Assembly (NCBI GenBank): GCA_020161855.1
Contig: JAIUNJ010000004.1
Coordinates: forward strand, 286,903-350,902
Direction of reading: 5' to 3'
DNA length: 64,000 nt
Source of the DNA: Pseudomonadota bacterium
Lineage (GTDB): Bacteria; Pseudomonadota; Alphaproteobacteria; Rhizobiales; Aestuariivirgaceae
Numbering within the stretch: position 1 is the stretch's first letter; every line of letters starts with the position of its first letter. The translations under genes were made by a program, and so were the position numbers. This document shows, in pieces, positions 8,091-54,921 of this stretch. The notes under the pieces are model-generated. The model was not told the DNA's origin, made no database searches, and was given only the letters and a program-made list of their open reading frames with translations.

Positions 8091-8999
8091 ATGGCACTGA
8101 GACCGAAAGAATCATTCCAGGACCTGATCCTGACGCTCCACAACTATTGGGCGGAGCAGGGCTGCGTCATCCTGCAACCCTATGACATGGAAGTGGGCGC
8201 CGGTACCTTCCACCCGGCCACGACGCTGCGCTCGGTGGGGCCACGGCATTGGTCAGCGGCCTATGTGCAGCCCTCGCGCCGCCCCAAGGACGGCCGCTAT
8301 GGCGAGAATCCCAACCGGCTGCAGCACTACTATCAGTACCAGGTGATCATGAAGCCCTCGCCACCTAACCTGCAGGAGCTTTATCTGGGATCGCTGAATG
8401 CGATCGGCATCGACCCGCATCTGCATGATCTGCGCTTTGTCGAGGATGATTGGGAAAGCCCGACGCTGGGTGCCTGGGGTCTGGGCTGGGAAGTCTGGTG
8501 CGATGGCATGGAAGTGTCGCAGTTCACCTATTTCCAGCAGGTGGGCGGCCTCGACTGCGCCCCGGTTTCGGGCGAACTCACCTACGGGCTCGAGCGACTG
8601 GCGATGTATGTGCAGGACGTGGACAATGTCTACGACCTCAACTTCAACGGCCGCGCCAAGGGCGACGGCCGCATCAGCTATGGCGATGTCTTCCTGCAAG
8701 CGGAGCAGGAGTACTCGCGCTTCAATTTCGAGTATGCCGACACGGCGATCCTGCACCAGCATTTCATCGACGCCGAGAAGGAGTGCAAGTCGCTCCTGAC
8801 GGCAGGCGAGAAGGATGGCAGCCACGAGCTATGCCTGCCGGCCTATGACCAGTGCATCAAGGCCTCGCATACTTTCAACCTGCTCGATGCCCGTGGCGTC
8901 ATCTCGGTGACGGAACGCGCCAACTACATCGCCCGGGTACGCGACCTCGCCAAGGCCTGTTGCGAAGCCTGGAGCAAGACGGCGGGAGGGCGCGCCTGA
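8091..8999 (+). CDS. glyQ: Glycyl-tRNA synthetase alpha subunit
   Basis: A 302-residue catalytic subunit of the bacterial alpha2beta2 glycyl-tRNA synthetase, about the length of E. coli GlyQ (303). Typical sequence begins [32 protein letters not shown] and continues with the conserved [22 protein letters not shown] region. The frame is open upstream to 8004, but the ATG at 8091 starts the conserved protein. It overlaps glyS by one base (TGATG), showing translational coupling. The 252 bases upstream hold no gene. Confidence 0.98.
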
Positions 9000-11011
9000 T
9001 GGCCGAGCTTCTTCTCGAACTCTTCTCCGAGGAAATCCCCGCCCGCATGCAGTCGAGGGCAGCGGAGGATCTGCGCGCCCTCATCACCAACGGATTGGTA
9101 GAGGCCGGTCTCACCTACGAAGGGGCACAGGCCCATGCCACGCCGCGCCGCCTGGTGCTTTCTGTGGAGGGCCTCAACGCCCGCGCCGCCGACACGCGCG
9201 AGGAGCGCAAGGGCCCGCGCGTCGATGCCCCGCAACCGGCAATCGATGGCTTTCTCAAGTCAACCGGCCTCAGCCTCGACCAACTCACGGTGCAGGAAGA
9301 CAAGAAGGGCAGCTTTTATCTCGCGGTGATCAAGAAGGATGGCCGCGACGCCACAGGCATCATCGCTGATCTCGTGCCGCAGGTGATCCGCAGTTTCCCC
9401 TGGCCCAAATCCATGCGCTGGGGTTCAGGAAGCTTGCGCTGGGTGCGGCCGCTTCACTCCATCATCTGCACCTTCGATGGCGAGGTTGTGCCGCTGGATG
9501 TCGAAGGCATCGCCAGCAGCAACACCACGCGCGGCCACCGCTTCCTCTCGGATGGCGCGATCGCGGTGCGCCGCTTTGAGGATTATGCCCAGAAGCTGTT
9601 CAAGGCCAATGTGATCGTCGATGCGCAGGCGCGCGCCGAGACGATCCGGACCGAGGCCAAGAATCTTGCCTTCGCGCAGGGGCTGGAAGTGGTCGAGGAT
9701 GAGGGCCTGCTGAAGGAAGTGGCCGGTCTTGTCGAGTGGCCGGTGGTTCTGATGGGCGCTTTTGACGAAGCCTATCTTGATGTGCCGCCGGAAGTGATCA
9801 TCACGACGATCAAGAACAATCAGAAGTGCTTCTGCCTGCGCAATGGCAAGACGGGCCTGCTCAGCAACCGCTATCTGCTCGTTTCCAACATGCTGGCACG
9901 TGACGGTGGCAAGGAGATCATCCGCGGCAATAACAAGGTGATTGCCGCGCGCCTTTCGGATGCGAAGTTTTTCTGGGACCAGGACCGCAAGGTGAAGCTG
10001 ACGGACAACCTCGCCAAGCTTGATGCGATCACCTTCCATGCCAAGCTGGGTACGGAAGCGCAGCGCGTGCGCCGCATCGAGGCGCTGGCCGCCGAGATCG
10101 CCAAGACCATCGGTGCCGACATTGAAAAGGCAAAGCTTGCGGCTCGCCTTGCCAAGGCCGATCTCGTGACCGGCATGGTAGGCGAGTTCCCGGAGCTTCA
10201 GGGGCTCATGGGCCGCTACTATGCCCTTGATCAGGATGTGGATGCCGAGGTGGCCGACGCCATCCGCGATCACTACAAGCCGCAAGGCCCCTCGGATTCC
10301 ATTCCGGAATCGAAAATCGGACAGGCCGTGGCGCTGGCCGACAAACTCGATACGTTGGTGGGCTTCTGGTCCATCGACGAGAAGCCAACGGGTTCCAAGG
10401 ATCCATACGCACTGCGCCGCGCGGCGCTCGGTGTGATCCGCATCATCCTTGGCAAGGAACTCCGTGTGCGGATGAACAAGATCGAGCCCGATCTTCTCTC
10501 ATTCTTCGCGGATCGCCTGAAAGTCTATCTCAAGGATCAGGGCGCCCGCCATGACCTGATCGATGCCGTGTTCGCACTGCCCGGCCAAGATGATCTGCTG
10601 ATGGTGGTGAAGCGTGTTGAGGCACTGGGCAAGCTGCTCGAGACCGATGATGGCCGGAACCTGCTGGCCGGCGTGAAGCGCGCCGCCAATATTCTGAAGA
10701 TCGAAGAGAAGAAGGACAACCAGCGCTACGCGGGCGATGTGAATTCGGCGCAGCTCATCAAGGGCGAGGAAAAGGCCCTGCATTCCGCCATCACCGTGCA
10801 GTCGGCGCAGGCGCGCAAGGCCATCGAGAATGAAGATTTTGAGGCTGCCATGCGGGCCATCGCCAAGCTGCGCGCGCCCGTCGATGCCTTCTTCGAGCAT
10901 GTGACGGTCAATGACAAGGACCAGACCTTCCGCGTCAACCGCCTGCGTCTGCTGAACCGCATCCGCGAAGCCTGCTCGGAAGTGGCGGATTTCTCCAGGA
11001 TCGAGGGCTAG
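8999..11011 (+). CDS. glyS: Glycyl-tRNA synthetase beta subunit
   Basis: A 670-residue beta subunit that binds tRNA-Gly and is needed with GlyQ for glycylation. The N-terminus [15 protein letters not shown] and the C-terminal [13 protein letters not shown] region are characteristic. The start is the ATG at 8999, which shares an A with the glyQ stop codon. The last 154 bases (10858-11011) recur at 12210-12363 with only three changes, all silent. A cobalamin riboswitch follows rather than the PPDK gene, which I recall as the usual neighbour in related genomes. Confidence 0.98.
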
Positions 11012-11028
11012 CCGAGGAACTGACCTGC

Positions 11029-11057
11029 TTGCGGATTTGAGGACCTGCCTGTATAAG
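11029..11057 (+). promoter_or_regulatory. Sigma-70-like promoter before the cobalamin riboswitch
   Basis: TTGCGG at 11029-11034 and TATAAG at 11052-11057 with a 17-base spacer. Transcription would start near 11064, just before the riboswitch. Its position between the glyS stop and the aptamer supports it. Confidence 0.5.
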
Positions 11058-11070
11058 ATTTCATGATGGT

Positions 11071-11250
11071 GCTGTGGTTGGCTACAACTGCCGCGGCTGA
11101 AAAGGGAACACGGTGCGGAAGACCCCAGAGGGACCAAAGCCGTGGCTGCCCACGCAACTGTAAGCGGTGAGGAGTCCTGCAGATGCCACTGGCCATTTGG
11201 CCGGGAAGGCGCAGGAGACCAGAGACCCGCGAAGTCAGGAGACCTGCCAT
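11071..11250 (+). ncRNA. Cobalamin (B12) riboswitch
   Basis: Several conserved blocks of the adenosylcobalamin aptamer appear in order. They are AAAAGGGAACACGGTGC near 11099-11115, GCCGTGGCTGCCCACGCAAC near 11139-11158 followed by TGTAAGCGGTGAGG, GCCACTGGCC with GGGAAGGCGC, and the B12-box GTCAGGAGACCTGCC at 11234-11248. Bound coenzyme B12 normally lowers expression of the downstream gene. The next gene is a CbiM-like transporter component, in line with control of cobalt or corrinoid uptake. Exact ends are approximate. Confidence 0.93.
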
Positions 11251-11316
11251 CAGCAACAGGCGCTGCTTCGCGCCGGTCAACTTACATCTGCACGATGGGT
11301 GCAGGGAGGAATAGAC

Positions 11317-11994
11317 ATGCATATCGAACCCGGCGTCGTCGACGGCGCCAAGATTGTTCTCAGTTACGCTACCGCCGCAGCCTCATTTGGGGTGACCGGC
11401 AAGCTGGCATTGGACGCAATCCGGAAGGACGGCGTTGGCGCCCTGGCTTTGCGAGCGGCGATTGCCACGGCGCTCGTCTTTAGCTTCTTCGAAATCCTGC
11501 CGCACCATCCGGTGGGCGTGTCCGAAGTCCACCTTATCCTCGGATCGACTCTCTTCTTGTTGTTTGGTGCAGGCCCGGCCGCCATCGGTCTTGCGCTTGG
11601 CCTTCTCATTCAGGGCGTGTTCTTTGCGCCCTTCGACCTCCCGCAATATGGTATGAACGTCACGATCCTGCTGGTGCCGCTCTTCGCGCTCAACCTTCTG
11701 GCCAAGCGCGTCATCCCTGAAAAGACGGCCTATGTAGACCTCAAGTACAGCCAGGCGCTGGCGCTGTCAGTGAGCTATCAGGGCGGCATTGTTGCTTGGG
11801 TTGCCTTCTGGGCGCTTTACGGGCACGGCTTTGGTGCGGAGAACCTTTCCAATATTGCTTCCTTCGGTCTGGCCTACATGAGCGTTATCCTGCTCGAACC
11901 GCTGGTCGATCTCGGTGTGCTCGCCGGCGCCAAGGCAGTTAGGCAATTGCAGCGGACCGCAATCGTCCAACCACGTGTTTACCAGTCAGCCTGA
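11317..11994 (+). CDS. CbiM-like ECF cobalt transporter substrate-binding membrane component
   Basis: A 225-residue polytopic membrane protein. Its N-terminus MHIEPGVV matches the CbiM family, in which the first residues with His2 form the metal site once the initiator Met is processed. Family members bind cobalt for ECF-type uptake with CbiN, CbiQ and CbiO. Hydrophobic segments cover most of the sequence (for example residues 52-65, 75-105, 110-130, 150-175). GGGAGGA lies before the ATG. No CbiN, CbiQ or CbiO gene follows; a terminator comes directly after. The gene therefore stands alone under a B12 riboswitch and may work as a solo transporter or borrow partners from elsewhere. Confidence 0.85.
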   Translation: MHIEPGVVDGAKIVLSYATAAASFGVTGKLALDAIRKDGVGALALRAAIATALVFSFFEILPHHPVGVSEVHLILGSTLFLLFGAGPAAIGLALGLLIQGVFFAPFDLPQYGMNVTILLVPLFALNLLAKRVIPEKTAYVDLKYSQALALSVSYQGGIVAWVAFWALYGHGFGAENLSNIASFGLAYMSVILLEPLVDLGVLAGAKAVRQLQRTAIVQPRVYQSA

Positions 11995-12021
11995 GTCACC
12001 TCGGCGTCTGTAGGAGTTCAG

Positions 12022-12053
12022 AAGGCGCTCCATCAAGGTGGGGCGCCTTTTCC
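12022..12053 (+). terminator. Intrinsic terminator after the CbiM-like gene
   Basis: AAGGCGCTCC (12022-12031) and GGGGCGCCTT (12040-12049) form a 10-bp stem with one G-T pair and an 8-base loop, followed by TTTTCC. It closes the riboswitch/CbiM transcription unit. Confidence 0.8.
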
Positions 12054-12135
12054 TTTGGTTGCGACATTGGCGGCGCAGCGCTTTTCTAGCGCTCTGGTAC
12101 TACGCGGCGTCATGTGCCGGTGTTAGAGCGCGGAC

Positions 12136-12214
12136 ATGCACCACGCGCCCGACTCCTCCTATTCCTGGTTCCGGATGGCGATTTCGCTGGCCCTGGCCAT
12201 GATCGGCGGCATCG
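12136..12214 (+). repeat. Duplicate of MFS gene 5' end (copy of 17242-17320)
   Basis: 79 bases aligned without gaps to 17242-17320. The differences lie in codons 2-16; the 31 bases next to the junction are identical. Six of the eight changed codons are synonymous. Upstream, CTGGYACTACGC and TAGAGCGCGG are shared as well, so the copied segment includes the MFS leader. Confidence 0.9.
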
Positions 12215-12363
12215 CCAAGCTGCGCGCACCCGTCGATGCCTTCTTCGAGCATGTGACGGTCAACGACAAGGACCAGACCTTCCGCGTCAACCGCCTGCGT
12301 CTGCTGAACCGCATCCGCGAAGCCTGCTCGGAAGTGGCGGATTTCTCCAGAATCGAGGGCTAG
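12136..12363 (+). CDS. Chimeric ORF: MFS transporter N-terminus joined to GlyS C-terminus
   Basis: A complete 75-codon frame built from two genes of this window. Codons 1-26 match the start of the MFS gene at 17242 (24 of 26 residues identical), and about 30 bases upstream also resemble each other. From 12210 to the TAG at 12363 it matches the last 154 bases of glyS, with all residues identical. The parts meet at a shared CATCG (12210-12214). The product would carry the start of a membrane helix followed by part of the GlyS C-terminal tail. It may be a non-functional recombination scar or a small expressed peptide. The sequence alone cannot tell which. Confidence 0.55.
12210..12363 (+). repeat. 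Duplicate of glyS 3' end (copy of 10858-11011)
   Basis: 154 bases aligned without gaps to the end of glyS, including the stop codon. Three single-base differences were counted (GCG/GCA, AAT/AAC, AGG/AGA), all silent. Similarity ends at the stop codon: the following bases differ at the two loci. Confidence 0.93.
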
Positions 12364-12761
12364 AACGCCACCTGCCTCTATTCCGCGATGAGTCTGGTTG
12401 CTCTCTTCGCGGCGTTCTGTCCAAAGCTCTGACGCGTTTTCGTTCCGCTTGAGCAAACGCGTTGCGCGATGCGGAATTTCATCTGCTGCAATGTAACGTA
12501 TCGATTCAATCGGAACAGAGTGGCAGAAAGATTGTTGCGTTACTGAAGACCTGTCGCGATCCAGTTTATACTTCGACAGGATTTGCAGAAGAAAATCATC
12601 CCATGATGATTGACTTACGCGCCGAAGCAGCCGGGATGCAGTCTCAAGAGCAGCAGTGCTCCCGCTTGATGCAGGCCAGTGCGGCCCTCTCTGCATCCCC
12701 CGCAGCGCTTTGGAGCGCCGCATGGACTTCGCTCCGCCGCCACTTGCCGCAGCGGAAATTC
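12364..12761 (+). other. Region between chimeric ORF and TadE-like gene
   Basis: No convincing separate gene. It holds an 8-bp inverted repeat, ACGCGTTT at 12432-12439 and AAACGCGT at 12455-12462, without a T-run. From 12462 the TadE frame is already open, with possible start codons at 12603, 12606, 12636 and 12669, so part of this stretch may encode an N-terminal extension of that protein. No clear ribosome-binding site decides between them. Confidence 0.4.
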
Positions 12762-13175
12762 ATGCAGCTTCTGATGAAATCCGATGGTGCAGCGGCCGTC
12801 GAGTTTGCAATCGTCGCACCGGTCTTCATATTACTCGTCTTCGGCATGATCGCATATGCGATCTATTTTGGCGCGGCGCATTCCGTTCAGCAGTTGGCTG
12901 GCGATGCCGCCAGGGCTGCTGTCGCGGGTCTGGACAGCAGCGAACGCCAGAATCTTGTGAAGCAGTTCATCAGCAAGAACGGCGCTTCCTACTCGTTCAT
13001 AGACGTTTCGAAACTGCAATATTCGGTCGGAAACGCCGCAGCTGACCCGACGCAGCTCGCGGTCGTGTTGTCCTATGATGCCAGGGAACTGCCGATCTGG
13101 GGACTATTGCCCTCGGGCCTGCTTCCGGACGAGACCGTGACTCGCCGGGTGAGTATCCGCATCGGGGGAGTCTAG
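12762..13175 (+). CDS. TadE-like pilus assembly protein
   Basis: A protein of at least 137 residues with the TadE domain: a short N-terminus, then GAAAVEFAIVAPVFILLVFGMIA, the type IV pilin-like hydrophobic segment with the conserved Glu. TadE-type pseudopilins are processed and assembled by the Tad/Flp system. I start at 12762 because only about 10 residues normally precede the hydrophobic segment; starts back to 12603 are possible. The TAG stop is immediately followed by the ATG of the TadG-like gene. No TadA, TadB, TadC or CpaA gene lies in the window, so the pair is orphaned here. Confidence 0.8.
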   Translation: MQLLMKSDGAAAVEFAIVAPVFILLVFGMIAYAIYFGAAHSVQQLAGDAARAAVAGLDSSERQNLVKQFISKNGASYSFIDVSKLQYSVGNAAADPTQLAVVLSYDARELPIWGLLPSGLLPDETVTRRVSIRIGGV

Positions 13176-14888
13176 ATGCAGACTGCCTTGCTTGCATTGA
13201 TTGCGAGATTTGCCCGTGACGGGCGGGGCAACATAGCCTTGATGAGCTCGCTGCTGTTCTCCGTGCTGGTCATGTGCGCCGCTTTCGGTGTCGACGAGGG
13301 AGCCTTGTACTACGATCGCAGGCAACTTCAGGGCGCGGCCGATGTGGCGGCAATCGTGGCGGCGGGCAATATTGGAAACGCGGATCGCGCCGCCCGCGCG
13401 GCGCTCTTGGACAACGGTTACTTGCCCAAGGATATTGATGGTCTCGGGATTGTGCAGCCAATGGGGCAATACCGGGATGTTTCAGCAATCGAGGTGCAAA
13501 CCGGATCCTACCGGCCGGCGAGATCGACTGCACCGGATCAGCGATTCACACCGGGCGGCAGCAATCCGAATGCTGTGCGAGTCTCTGTGAGAAGCCCAGG
13601 CGCGCTCTATTTCGCGTCCATGTTTGCCGAGCCGCCGACTTTGTCGGCGGAAGCCATCGCCAGCACGGAAGCCATTGCTGCATTCTCGATTGGTTCAAGG
13701 CTTCTGAGCCTGAATGACGGGATTCTGAACGCCCTGTTATCCGGTCTTCTGGACACCACCATATCACTCGATGTCATGGACTACACGGCCCTTGCCAACG
13801 CCAATCTCAGCTTGCCTGATTTTCTCGATGAGCTGGCAAAGGAAGTGGGGTTGAAGGCCGGCACTTATGACGCCTTGCTTGCAGAGAAGGTTACTTACCG
13901 GCAACTCACGACGGCTCTGTCGAAAGCACTTGCAAAAGATGCATCTGCAAACAGGGCGATGAGCCGCTTCAGCAAACAGGCAGCCTTTTCCCGGAGTGAG
14001 ATCCCTCTTTCGGAGCTTTTCAATCTTCGGGATGCAGGCGGCATGACCATCGGCGAGCCCGGGTCGCGTCTGGAGCTGACGGTCAACGCCCTTGAAGTCG
14101 TAGGTGCCAGTGCGGCTTTGGGAGGCGAGAACCAGATTGCGCTCGACCTGTCGACGGCAATCCCGGGCGTGGCTTCCAGCTCGGTTTATCTGACTCTTGG
14201 AGAACGTCCGCAGGGTACATCATGGTTTAACGTTGGCGGCCGTGGGAGCACGGTGCAGACGGCTCAGACCCGCCTCCGTCTCGTTCTCCAGGTTGGCGGC
14301 ACTGGCCTGCTTGCAGGGACTACCCTGCGGATTCCGGTCTATCTTGATCTCGCCTTTGCCGAGGCGACGCTTGAGAACATCTATTGCCCGGCCAAGTCTG
14401 GCAAGGACAGGGCCGTACGCATCGCCGCAAAGCCTGGCGTAGCTGATCTCTGGATCGGCGATGTCACGACTGCGCAAATGAAGGATCTGGCAAATCCGGC
14501 GAATGTCAAAGTCGCGACTTTTGCGAAGGTGCCATTGATCACGGTGACCGGCAGCGCTCACGTGAATATCGGCAACATGAAGGCCCGGCCTCTTGATTTC
14601 TCAATAGCCGACATTGAAAGCCATTCCGCAAAGAGCGTCTCCACCACGGATGTTGCGGCTCCTCTCTTTGCTTCGTTGCTGGGTGACCTCAAATTGACGG
14701 TGAAAGTTGCCGGCCTCGGGCTGAATGCGGATGCGATTGGAACCTCGGTTTCCGATGTGTTGAAGCCACTGGCTCCGGCCGTTGATTCATCGATCCGCAG
14801 CCTTTTGGGCCTCTTGGGCATCAAGGTCGGTGAGGCAGATGTCTGGGCCAATGGTGTACAATGTGGCCGGGCAGTTCTGGTTCAGTGA
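13176..14888 (+). CDS. TadG-like protein
   Basis: A 570-residue protein with the TadG layout. An N-terminal hydrophobic segment (residues 20-40, IALMSSLLFSVLVMCAAFG) is followed by the conserved VDEGALYYDRRQLQGAADVAAIVAA stretch, then a long, probably extracytoplasmic region. TadG-type proteins belong to Tad pilus or surface systems; many alphaproteobacteria carry solitary TadE/TadG pairs of unknown role. Its ATG abuts the TadE stop. Codon use looks richer in A/T than in neighbouring housekeeping genes, which hints at an accessory origin; this was judged by eye. Confidence 0.85.
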   Translation: MQTALLALIARFARDGRGNIALMSSLLFSVLVMCAAFGVDEGALYYDRRQLQGAADVAAIVAAGNIGNADRAARAALLDNGYLPKDIDGLGIVQPMGQYRDVSAIEVQTGSYRPARSTAPDQRFTPGGSNPNAVRVSVRSPGALYFASMFAEPPTLSAEAIASTEAIAAFSIGSRLLSLNDGILNALLSGLLDTTISLDVMDYTALANANLSLPDFLDELAKEVGLKAGTYDALLAEKVTYRQLTTALSKALAKDASANRAMSRFSKQAAFSRSEIPLSELFNLRDAGGMTIGEPGSRLELTVNALEVVGASAALGGENQIALDLSTAIPGVASSSVYLTLGERPQGTSWFNVGGRGSTVQTAQTRLRLVLQVGGTGLLAGTTLRIPVYLDLAFAEATLENIYCPAKSGKDRAVRIAAKPGVADLWIGDVTTAQMKDLANPANVKVATFAKVPLITVTGSAHVNIGNMKARPLDFSIADIESHSAKSVSTTDVAAPLFASLLGDLKLTVKVAGLGLNADAIGTSVSDVLKPLAPAVDSSIRSLLGLLGIKVGEADVWANGVQCGRAVLVQ

Positions 14889-14936: not shown

Positions 14937-15752
14937 TCAAGATGCTTTCGGCAATCCGCTCTGCGTTTCCGGAGCGGCGAAGTAGTTCATTGATGGGTTG
15001 ATGGAATGCTGGGCTGAGAAGCTAAGTAGAGTTTCCTGTACGTGGTTGCGCAGGGCCTCTTCAGCCTTCAAGGGCAGCGTGCATCCGACAACGAGCAAGG
15101 AATTCTCGCGCCAGTCCATGACGGGTACTGCAATGGTCTGCAGGCGCGGATCCGTTTCTCCATGCACCAGAGCGTATCGTCTCTCTCGAACCTCCTTGAT
15201 AATGTTCTGCATCGAGGCAACGCCATCCGCACTCTCGCCCTGCATTTCCGACTCGCGACTGATCAAGGCGCTTGTTTGTGCTGGAGACAGATATGCCGCG
15301 AAAACGCGGCCGGCCGCGGTTCGCGTGACGGGCATAACGTGCCCAGGCAGTGTGTTCACGCCGATGGGGTTGTCTGCATAGGTCCAACGAACAATCACAG
15401 GCCCCGCCGACGTCCAGATGGAGAGAAAAACATGGCAGCCTGTTTCACGGGCAAGTTCTTGCAGGTTGTTTTCAACCAGTGCGAACAGATCAATCTGCCT
15501 CATGGCTGCCAGACCCAGATGAATGCAGTTCCTGCCGAGCGCATATTGGCCGTGCCTGTGACTCTGCACGGCGAAATTTCTCTTCACAAATGTTGTAAGA
15601 TAGCGATGAACCTTGCTGGGTGCTTCATGGCAAGCGTGGCTGAGTTCGCTCAACGATAGCGGTTGTGTTGCCTTTCCGAGCGCTTCAAGAATGCTCAAAG
15701 CGGTATCGAGCGATTTGATCCCCGCCGGATCGTGTCCGTATTCATGATCCAT
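14937..15752 (-). CDS. IclR family transcriptional regulator
   Basis: A regulator of about 271 residues. It has an N-terminal winged helix-turn-helix (SLDTALSILEALGKATQPLSLSELSHAC..SKVHRYLTTFVKRNF, residues about 13-60) and a C-terminal IclR effector-binding domain (VNTLPGHVMPVTRTAAGRVFAAY). IclR proteins respond to small aromatic or organic acids. The ATG at 15752 is chosen over a GTG at 15758 because AAGGAG lies 5 bases before 15752. It converges with the TadG-like gene. The target gene is not obvious; 600 bases without a gene lie on the upstream side. Confidence 0.9.
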   Translation of the reverse strand: MDHEYGHDPAGIKSLDTALSILEALGKATQPLSLSELSHACHEAPSKVHRYLTTFVKRNFAVQSHRHGQYALGRNCIHLGLAAMRQIDLFALVENNLQELARETGCHVFLSIWTSAGPVIVRWTYADNPIGVNTLPGHVMPVTRTAAGRVFAAYLSPAQTSALISRESEMQGESADGVASMQNIIKEVRERRYALVHGETDPRLQTIAVPVMDWRENSLLVVGCTLPLKAEEALRNHVQETLLSFSAQHSINPSMNYFAAPETQSGLPKAS

Positions 15753-16365
15753 CGTCACTCCTTCGCGCCAATACTACGACCTCGTCTCCAGAGCCGCCGG
15801 GCGCGCAATTGCGGATATTATAGATCGTGCCATCTTTCACGAGGCTGTAACGGAGCCTCAATTGGAGAGGTGTGTTTCATGCTTGTGAATAGCAAGCCAC
15901 GGCGCAGATTAATCTTGTAGTGGCCGATACGTTCCGGCGGCGCACGTCCAATATGTATCTTATGTGTCCGGTCTTGTTACGCAGTTTCGCGCTTGGCGAT
16001 ATGAGGGTTGCAGCAAGAAAGACTCAGTTCCGCATGGTGAAACGCAGAGCGCTTTAAATTAATCCGTTTACTGACATTTATACACGTGCCGATCATCTGT
16101 TTCTAAGCGCCGGCACATACATTGCTCGTCCATGAGCTGTTGATGGCTCGCAGGAGATCGCAGTGTTGGCGGAATACCTCATTGCCGGAATTCAGACGCT
16201 ACCGTGTTCAACTTCGAATGAGAGCAAGATTGTTGCACCGCGCAACAATCCTGCATCGTTCGGGACGGCAGATATCGTCCCGGCAACCAACAATGCGCAA
16301 CTGGCCGATGTTCACGCAAAACGCAGCGGCCGCCGGTTCACCGCGAAGATATGGGAGAAGGTATT
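15753..16365. other. Gene-poor 0.6-kb stretch with paired inverted repeats
   Basis: No convincing gene on either strand; the small frames here lack ribosome-binding sites and recognisable sequence. Near the right end are two consecutive perfect hairpins. The first is GATTGTTGC/GCAACAATC (16228-16250, 5-base loop). The second is CGGGACG/CGTCCCG (16261-16282, 8-base loop). Both would lie in the 5' leader of the secreted-protein gene at 16366. The base composition is visibly lower in GC than the flanks. Confidence 0.5.
16228..16282 (+). promoter_or_regulatory. Tandem hairpins upstream of the secreted-protein gene
   Basis: Two stem-loops, 9 bp and 7 bp, separated by 10 bases and ending 83 bases before the ATG at 16366. 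Neither is followed by a T-run. They may be an operator, a processed leader or a small RNA element; only the pairing is seen. Confidence 0.4.
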
Positions 16366-17055
16366 ATGCAGTTGAGAAAATGCACAGAAGCTCTGGCCAT
16401 TGCGGCCCTCGCCGCTTTCATCTGGGCCGGTCAGGGCACTGCTGCGGGTTTGGTTGACCGCGTTGGTGGCGTTGTTGGCAAAGTGACCAAAGACGTCAGC
16501 AAGTCGGTAGGCAGCACTGTTGGAAAGACGACATCAGGGCTTTCCAGCGCCACTTCCAGCCTCGGCAAGGCCGCAGGTGGTCTTGCAAGCAGCAGCAGCT
16601 CGGGCGGCACGAACACCACGACACTCGGCTCCAAGACTGGAACATCGGCGAAAGTGACAAGCGGCAATGGTACCATTGAAGCTGCTGTTCAGGACCGGCT
16701 CAACAGTATGAGCCGCAAGCAGCTTGCCGCAGTCTGCAACTCTGTCGGCGGCAACGGCTGCAGTACCGCCACGCGGCAACAACTGCTGGGAATCATTGAC
16801 GTGCGGATGGAGACGATGGGGCCCCGTCGGCTGGCGAGTCTTTGCGTCTCAATCAATGGTGGCTGCGGCGGCACCCGCATCCGCCCAAGGCCGCCGGGAA
16901 CTGTCGATCCCGATGGGAAGCCTGGGCCGATCAAGGCCTGGCGTTCTGGCAGCAAGGTTGACCAGGATGTCATTCTGACCTGCCGGAAGATTCTTGCTTC
17001 GCCGAAAAAATACGACCCTGGCATGGTCAAGCTGTGCCGGGCAGTGAAACTCTGA
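16366..17055 (+). CDS. Secreted hypothetical protein with cysteine repeats
   Basis: A 229-residue protein with a signal peptide (LRKCTEALAIAALAAFIWAGQGTAAG, cleavage likely after TAA or TAAG). A Gly/Ser/Thr/Lys-rich low-complexity region follows (about residues 33-100). Next come two related units, SMSRKQLAAVCNSVGGNGC and TMGPRRLASLCVSINGGC, then a Pro-rich linker and a C-terminal pair of cysteines (LTCRKIL...VKLCRAV). The six cysteines suggest disulfides in the periplasm or outside the cell. I chose the ATG at 16366 because GAGAAGG lies 4 bases before it. I do not recognise the family. Confidence 0.75.
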   Translation: MQLRKCTEALAIAALAAFIWAGQGTAAGLVDRVGGVVGKVTKDVSKSVGSTVGKTTSGLSSATSSLGKAAGGLASSSSSGGTNTTTLGSKTGTSAKVTSGNGTIEAAVQDRLNSMSRKQLAAVCNSVGGNGCSTATRQQLLGIIDVRMETMGPRRLASLCVSINGGCGGTRIRPRPPGTVDPDGKPGPIKAWRSGSKVDQDVILTCRKILASPKKYDPGMVKLCRAVKL

Positions 17056-17241
17056 TCGGCCGTCTTTTACGGCCAGACACCTTGATCTGATATCCAACTG
17101 AAGCTTCACCGACACCCGGTGGCGTGCGGGGACGAAATCCTTGTGCGTCACCGGAGCCTGGCGGCCTCTCGCCTTGCTTCCGGGCCACAATTGCTGAGTC
17201 TGGCACTACGCCACCGCCGCCCGGGGTGATAGAGCGCGGCA

Positions 17242-18450
17242 ATGCAATACGCGCCCGACTCCTCTTATTCATGGTTTCGCATGGCCATCTCGCTGGCCCT
17301 GGCCATGATCGGCGGCATCGGAATCTGGGCCGCCGTGGTGACCCTGCCAGTCATCCAGCAGGAATTCGGCATTGACCGCTCCGGCGCTTCGTTGCCCTAC
17401 ACGCTGACCATGATTGGCTTTGCCCTGGGCGGCGTGCTCGCCGGGCGCATGGCGGACCGCTTCGGCATCTGGGTGCCCTTGGTGCTTGGCACCGTGTTTC
17501 TCGGCTCCGGCTTCATTCTCAGTGGCTTTGCCACCGGCTACTGGATGTTCGTTGCGGCACAGACCGTGCTGGTCGGAATCCTCGGAATCGCAGTCACCTT
17601 CGGCCCGCTTATCGCGGATGTTTCGCTCTGGTTCCAGAAGCGGCGGGGCATTGCTGTGGCCGTTGTTGCTAGCGGCAACTATCTCGCCGGCACGATCTGG
17701 CCGCCCATCCTGACGGCAGCGATCGAGACCTGGGGTTGGCGCAATGCCTACATCGCAATCGGCATCATTGTGATCATACTGATGTTGCCGCTGGCGCTGC
17801 TGCTCAAGCCGCGCGCTTCGCTGGAGGAGCGGCCTTCGCCCACCTCGATGAACCGCGAGATCAACGGGACGCCGGTGCTGCAGGCGCTGATTGTTCTGGC
17901 GGGCCTCGCCTGTTGCGTCGCCATGTCAATGCCACAGGTTCACATCATCGCCTATTGTGTCGATCTCGGCTATGGCGTGGTGCGCGGCTCCGAGATGCTG
18001 TCCCTGATGCTTGGCTTCGGTGTCGCCAGCCGTCTCATATCGGGTTTCCTGGCCGACAGGATCGGCGGCGTGGGCACGCTCATCATCGGTTCCACGCTGC
18101 AATGCCTGGCATTGATCCTCTACATTCCCTTTGACGGGTTGATGCCGCTCTATGTGGTGTCATCGCTCTTCGGTCTGGCTCAGGGCGGCATCGTGCCGAG
18201 CTATGCCCTGATCATCCGCGACAACTTCCCGGCGCGCGAGGCAGGTTTCCGGATTTCGCTGGTATTGACGGCAACGGTGCTGGGCATGGCGCTGGGCGGC
18301 TGGCTCTCGGGCGAGATCTATGATGTCACCGGTTCCTATACCGGCGCGTTCATCCACGGCATTGCCTGGAACCTGCTCAACATGGCGATTGCCGCCTGGC
18401 TTATCTTCCGGGGCCGCAAGCCGGCGCGGGCACGCATGGCTGCGGCGTGA
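17242..18450 (+). CDS. MFS transporter
   Basis: A 402-residue major facilitator with about 12 hydrophobic segments. The loop 2-3 motif is GVLAGRMADRFG (about residues 68-79), and a partial repeat, SGFLADRIGGVG, lies in the second half. The overall form resembles monocarboxylate/oxalate-type transporters, but the substrate cannot be told. Its first 26 codons recur in the chimeric ORF at 12136. It ends 79 bases before the PPDK-like gene and may be co-transcribed with it. Confidence 0.9.
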   Translation: MQYAPDSSYSWFRMAISLALAMIGGIGIWAAVVTLPVIQQEFGIDRSGASLPYTLTMIGFALGGVLAGRMADRFGIWVPLVLGTVFLGSGFILSGFATGYWMFVAAQTVLVGILGIAVTFGPLIADVSLWFQKRRGIAVAVVASGNYLAGTIWPPILTAAIETWGWRNAYIAIGIIVIILMLPLALLLKPRASLEERPSPTSMNREINGTPVLQALIVLAGLACCVAMSMPQVHIIAYCVDLGYGVVRGSEMLSLMLGFGVASRLISGFLADRIGGVGTLIIGSTLQCLALILYIPFDGLMPLYVVSSLFGLAQGGIVPSYALIIRDNFPAREAGFRISLVLTATVLGMALGGWLSGEIYDVTGSYTGAFIHGIAWNLLNMAIAAWLIFRGRKPARARMAAA

Positions 18451-54845: not shown

Positions 54846-54921
54846 TGGTGGGCGATACTGGACTCGAACCAGTGACCCCTGCGATGTGAACACAGTGCTC
54901 TACCAACTGAGCTAATCGCCC
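54846..54921 (-). tRNA. tRNA-Val (anticodon CAC)
   Basis: On the minus strand a complete 76-base cloverleaf runs from GGGCGAT at 54921 to the matching ATCGCCC, discriminator A and encoded CCA at 54846. The D arm is GCTC-AGTTGGTA-GAGC. The anticodon stem-loop is CTGTG-TTCACAT-CGCAG, giving anticodon CAC. The T arm is ACTGG-TTCGAGT-CCAGT. It would read the valine codon GUG. The 200 bases between it and dapF contain nothing recognised. Confidence 0.98.

Follow-up and report, generated by a model that had tools for sequence, protein, structure and literature searches.

A chimeric open reading frame between glyS and an MFS transporter gene that looks like the scar of two stacked versions of one chromosomal stretch

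Homology-facilitated illegitimate recombination has been described in Streptococcus pneumoniae, Acinetobacter baylyi, and Pseudomonas stutzeri (PMC3240628). As outlined in that report, the reaction uses 3 to 10 bp of microhomology and gives insertions of 1 kb on average. The same outline states that a deletion of similar size usually accompanies the insertion. Tandem duplications can also form at short microhomologies, and the summary of one study describes borders of 9 bp (PMC11111574). Fusion genes may instead be born by deletion. The yjcO-lysU fusion, from the long-term experiment with E. coli, is introduced as such a case in PMC12803068.

We analyzed a window of 64,000 nucleotides (GenBank assembly GCA_020161855.1, contig JAIUNJ010000004.1, positions 286,903 to 350,902) from a bacterium of the family Aestuariivirgaceae, here genome G000. 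It contains a short chimeric open reading frame (ORF) that begins like an MFS transporter gene and ends like glyS. The chimera looks like a recombination scar, with two versions of one chromosomal stretch stacked end to end. It is a known kind of scar and a clean example, unless it is a mis-assembly. What is unusual is that the two copies hold different contents.

Structure of the join and its neighborhood

The order in the window is glyS, a first interval (B12 riboswitch and cbiM), the MFS start/glyS end chimera, a second interval (tadE, tadG, iclR, and an unknown gene), and the MFS gene. The features are as follows.

8999-11011, + strand: complete glyS, glycyl-tRNA synthetase beta subunit (Pfam tRNA_synt_2f, 1.3e-193; DALR_1, 1.4e-06)
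11050-11265, + strand: cobalamin riboswitch (Rfam RF00174, 128.5 bits)
11317-11994, + strand: cbiM, cobalt-uptake permease gene, 3' of the riboswitch (Pfam CbiM, 6e-16)
12020-12051, + strand: terminator-like hairpin of 14 pairs after cbiM (hairpin scan)
12093-12135, + strand: copy of the MFS upstream region, in register with 17199-17241
12136-12363, + strand: chimeric ORF, ATG start, 75 amino acids
12136-12214, + strand: truncated copy of the MFS start, 26 codons and one base, with 71 of 79 bases as in 17242-17320
12210-12214, + strand: junction microhomology CATCG, common to MFS and glyS
12210-12363, + strand: copy of the glyS end, 50 codons and the stop, with 3 differences in 154 bases, all synonymous
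12603-14888, + strand: tadE-like and tadG-like genes, content of the second interval (Pfam TadE, 7.5e-13; Tad_C, 6.2e-12; Tad, 3e-07)
14937-15758, - strand: gene for an IclR-type regulator (Pfam IclR_C, 1.1e-13; HTH_IclR, 4.4e-13)
16366-17055, + strand: unknown gene adjoining iclR, without a Pfam family
17242-18450, + strand: complete resident MFS transporter gene (Pfam MFS_1, 3.4e-43)

The chimera is built from two direct repeats. Positions 12210-12363 repeat 10858-11011 at the end of glyS (154 nt, 98%), and the earlier note had correctly read everything from 12210 to the stop as the last 154 bases of that gene. Positions 12119-12214 repeat 17225-17320, the MFS start with part of its upstream region (96 nt, 89%). 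The earlier note matched codons 1 to 26 to the MFS gene at 17242. The match stands as a whole, but codons 2 and 3 differ (H,H in the chimera versus Q,Y in the resident gene), and the similarity begins earlier, at 12119. The two glyS ends lie 1,352 bp apart and share an identical run of 86 bases. No further repeat of at least 40 bases was found in the window at the settings used.

The shared word at the join is exactly 5 bases. The base before CATCG matches the MFS gene only and the base after it matches glyS only, which bears out the 5-bp microhomology reported from the first look. Among 200,000 random joins between the MFS and glyS genes, at least 5 shared bases occurred in 0.74% (chance 0.0074). 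The length falls within the 3- to 10-bp range for homology-facilitated illegitimate recombination. The reading frame is preserved across the join, a one-in-three chance, and the 75-residue ORF was confirmed.

The downstream end of a unit is joined here to that unit's upstream end, and complete parents lie outside, which is the geometry of a tandem duplication join. Because complete glyS and MFS genes enclose the MFS start and the glyS end, we read the chimeric ORF as the join of tandem glyS-X-MFS copies. X differs between the copies, with a cbiM cassette in one and a tad/iclR block in the other, and a plain duplication does not give two different X. The earlier note had proposed the birth of a fusion ORF by illegitimate recombination. 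The microhomology and the kept frame agree with that proposal, but it misses the geometry, in which the ORF would be a by-product of the tandem join. Such a join is bound to form whether glyS-X-MFS is duplicated in tandem or two of its alleles are stacked.

Apart from the glyS stop and the element upstream of MFS, the two spacers show weak homology; of 500 single-base shuffles, 26 and 17 score as high as observed. TCTGG.ACTACGC is in register at 12093 and 17199. The CbiM, TadG-like, and IclR proteins and the product of the gene adjoining iclR were searched genome-wide, and each has one match in G000. Distant relatives of the iclR gene and its neighbor (14937-17055; about 38% identity) are adjacent in G032 and G021 (L097 and L098). 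A mobile element was considered and dropped. The sole tRNA gene in the window is at 54846 and none is nearby, the repeat search gave nothing further at its settings, and integrase and transposase domains were absent among eight proteins scanned with Pfam.

The join could be an assembly artefact, as the genome is a draft in 19 contigs. The near-identical glyS ends with their long identical run could mislead a short-read assembly, and the 1,352-base unit might be a separate molecule. This is very unlikely. Both halves differ from the resident genes and are thus not copies of the same reads, and the contamination estimate is 0. A 5-base overlap is also too short for an assembler to invent a join.

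Divergence of the two halves from the resident genes

The halves differ from the resident genes to unequal degrees. Coding-base identity is 148/151 in the glyS part and 71/79 in the MFS part, so that the MFS start differs at 8 of 79 bases (10%) and the glyS half at 2%. In relatives the rates of evolution of these halves differ. The codons compared, 25 from MFS and 50 from glyS, carry 11 base differences, of which 9 are synonymous (6 of 8 in the MFS half and 3 of 3 in the glyS half). Unconstrained change would be expected to give 24 to 30% synonymous differences (P at most 6e-4 for the observed 9/11). The silent differences probably resemble those between working alleles. Since the MFS half is 10% divergent and 6 of its 8 changes are silent, the resident MFS gene is unlikely to be its direct source. 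The earlier note saw both parents nearby. This stands for the glyS half, which is 98% like the resident gene, but is doubtful for the MFS half.

Where it differs from the resident genes, the chimera has the letter commoner in relatives at 5 of the 8 sites in MFS but at only 1 of the 3 in glyS, which is a lean only. A plain tree was built from 225 bases in 19 rows, 17 of them relatives. It left out L052, whose gene order is odd, L057, whose glyS end does not align in register (84/151), and loci with a single gene; the commoner-letter count took these in wherever the piece was present. The chimera tip is 0.0125 and the resident tip 0.0366. As its tip is the shorter one, the chimera has no sign of long decay. 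One split puts it nearer G006 and G032 and away from the resident genes, with a support of 59 that decides nothing. The short tip and silent differences fit an allele that worked in a sister lineage and was joined here recently.

An identical join would arise by tandem duplication within this genome. The stretch from the glyS end through a spacer to the MFS start would be duplicated via CATCG, and cbiM and the tad/iclR genes would enter the two spacers later. We regard this origin as rather unlikely. The 9 of 11 silent differences disfavor it, although a mixture of half-neutral and half-constrained change still gives P of about 0.09 to 0.12 and is not rejected. An unconstrained MFS start should change at least at the resident rate, but the chimera branch is shorter. 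Two extra insertions, one per spacer, are also required.

The silent-site divergence of the MFS half would also be accounted for by a fusion born by deletion. A larger tandem duplication would have carried a complete second MFS gene and glyS, and these would have diverged while still working. A deletion via CATCG, reaching from codon 26 of MFS to the end of glyS, would then have left the chimera. A tandem duplication is unlikely to survive long, which counts against this course of events. The resident glyS and MFS genes are both complete and neither parent is shortened. A second complete copy of either gene was not found in this genome, where the three matches are the chimera, glyS, and MFS (scoring covered 12 of the 76 first-look candidates, and the genome is 92% complete). 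Tandem glyS-MFS units were absent from the 33 relatives' loci described below. Fusions of this kind with a tRNA synthetase part are reported, yjcO-lysU in PMC12803068 being one. We consider a deletion origin improbable here.

The glyS-MFS interval in relatives and the coding potential of the chimera

A query of 274 bases (12090-12363) was searched against 61 genomes, made up of G000, 36 congeners, and 24 further genomes from the same order. It matched in 45 of the 61, including 31 of the 36 congeners. The earlier note had suggested looking for the same chimera in related genomes, and it was not found there; none of the 60 other genomes had both halves in one match. The join is query base 121, and matches to the glyS half start there or at most 30 bases before it. 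Those of G018, G010, and G045 reach furthest across the join, starting at query base 91. The G018 and G010 matches were fetched and sit in complete glyS genes. A degenerate protein pattern for the junction, with 12 residues fixed, gave 0 matches in a contig database from which this genome or near relatives may be missing. In a GlyS scan of the same database, the best 80 of 587 matches were mostly from other genera.

We fetched 33 loci from 32 genomes, namely the 31 matching congeners and G046. The MFS gene comes after glyS on the same strand in 17 of the 33, all of them congeners (17 of the 31 that matched). In those loci, 83 to 2,742 bp separate the final glyS codon from the position that matches MFS codon 1. 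G006 is the closest relative by its glyS end (137/151), and its distance is 227 bp. The other 16 loci end early, have no MFS match, have one of the two genes, or show another order (L052). None of the 33 gave a match to cbiM, tadE, tadG, iclR, or the gene adjoining iclR (tblastn, E 1e-6, 45 bits). Both parental alleles are therefore hypothetical, as neither a glyS-cbiM-MFS nor a glyS-tad/iclR-MFS arrangement was found among the 33.

The ORFs between glyS and MFS were listed for 8 loci, and 3 proteins were tested by Pfam. L039 yielded an Sbt_1 transporter, L041 a LysR regulator, and L043 a UDG-family protein. L037, L041, and L042 contain proteins that resemble the Sbt_1 transporter of L039, as judged by eye only. 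Other congeners have short spacers. Because the longer gaps hold differing genes, we regard the interval as one of changing content. It is, by sequence comparison, a small hotspot of gene turnover across congeners (L037, L039, L041-L044, and L053).

The riboswitch and cbiM occur also in G006, G032, and G030, adjoining other genes; the G030 copy is cut by a contig end. Since its neighbors differ among these genomes, the cassette changes place. This mobility, together with the short spacers of relatives, is consistent with the in-genome duplication and later insertions set out above.

Some further observations were made at these loci. G006 and G032 encode a related ORF of 139 amino acids after riboswitch-cbiM, on the opposite strand (L093, L094, and L096 compared). 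In L052 (G024:C24), glyS is followed by glyQ, and the other loci showing both genes have glyQ first; this is a rearrangement or an assembly fault. In G030, besides the glyS end adjoining MFS, another lies where a contig begins (L179, G030:C421:12-293), through duplication or contamination. A 43-base glyS-like match on contig 406 of G030 was set aside as a probable chance match.

The chimeric product has no Pfam domain. A single-sequence structure prediction, with no alignment, gave a mean pLDDT of 58.7 and a pTM of 0.33 for the 75 residues. The best 19-residue hydropathy is 1.49, versus 2.21 in the MFS protein, so that the helix stretch is weakened. The glyS part corresponds to GlyS residues 621-670 and takes in 37 residues of the DALR_1 match, which spans 99 (559-657). 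A scan covering the sigma-70 type only found no such promoter in 10800-12700. The same region has 4 terminator-like sites, versus a mean of 1.5 in shuffles.

The chimera and the MFS genes of G006 and G032 have an upstream element in common, CTGG..CTACG followed by TGATA or TGTTA. In the upstream-region alignment, its hexamer lies nine bases from the ATG. The element may be a promoter, and as it is shared with those MFS genes, transcription of the chimera is possible. Several congeners (L037, L040, L042, L053, and others) have TTTGACC and TAGG or TAAG immediately ahead of the MFS start, at a spacing of about 17 bases. This pair would fit a promoter whose transcript has a very short leader or none.

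There is a slim chance that selection maintains the chimera as a new gene, with its expression driven by the copied MFS upstream region. Its frame is open with a start codon, the upstream element is in register and recurs in G006 and G032, and 9 of 11 coding differences are silent. Its lack of a Pfam family, weakened helix, low-confidence model, and missing sigma-70-like promoter count against this, as do the partial coverage of DALR_1 and the failure to find the chimera elsewhere. In the relatives searched the ORF is not conserved, and it shows no recognizable domain. It is probably an inert by-product of the join and, as a new gene, probably matters little.

Proposed origin and comparison with known systems

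In the reading we prefer, at a probability of about 45%, glyS-cbiM-MFS DNA of a sister lineage entered via glyS homology and was closed by the CATCG microhomology. The two copies would be alleles of two closely related lineages. A linear piece with the glyS end, riboswitch, cbiM, and MFS start would have come in from the sister lineage, with one of its ends pairing with the resident glyS. Its other end would have been joined illegitimately, via CATCG, to the resident glyS end. By an alternative path to the same product, a circle would be closed at CATCG and then enter by one crossover in glyS. The net gain would be about 1.35 kb, with a complete glyS retained. That the ORF is still open would reflect a recent event and the one-in-three chance of keeping the frame. 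The donor was not found in the 33 fetched loci, the contig database, or the searched genomes. Weighing against this reading are the hypothetical state of both parental alleles, the P of about 0.09 to 0.12 for mixed change, the split support of 59, the 1 of 3 glyS sites, the unequal divergence of the two halves, and a small duplication in place of the usual deletion.

The genome encodes two possible routes for linear DNA, judging by its gene content. One is a GTA_TIM gene, a gene-transfer-agent (GTA) marker (PF13547, 500 bits), which matches 1 of 14 control genomes (Caulobacter). The other is a Competence-domain gene (PF03772, 202 bits), which matches 10 of the 14. These represent opportunity, not proof.

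We tentatively extend the proposal to an additive stacking of alleles. The intervals of two lineages would be joined in tandem, possibly after delivery by GTA, and cbiM would be gained without loss. If this is true, the cell gained the cbiM of a sister lineage while keeping its own interval, and the gain is reversible via the repeats. RecA should be able to act on the 154-base direct repeats, so that the cbiM unit is either cleanly lost or multiplied. The locus suggests a route by which an accessory gene is added at a variable spot between conserved genes without losing the prior content. Such additions would throw off open fusion reading frames.

As in homology-facilitated illegitimate recombination, as that reaction is outlined in PMC3240628, the proposed event has one homologous end, another made via microhomology, and about 1 kb of new DNA. 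It differs in that the second join lands inside glyS again and duplicates 154 bp, where a deletion of similar size is usual in that reaction, and in that the event here is one we infer. Like the microhomology tandem duplications summarized in PMC11111574, the locus has head-to-tail copies and a new junction in a short shared word. Unlike those duplications, the copies here hold different genes and differ as alleles do. The chimera resembles yjcO-lysU and others, as presented in PMC12803068, in that unrelated genes are fused, one part is from a tRNA synthetase, the catalytic domains are lost, and the product is likely inert. Unlike yjcO-lysU, the chimera here is flanked by a complete glyS and a complete MFS gene.
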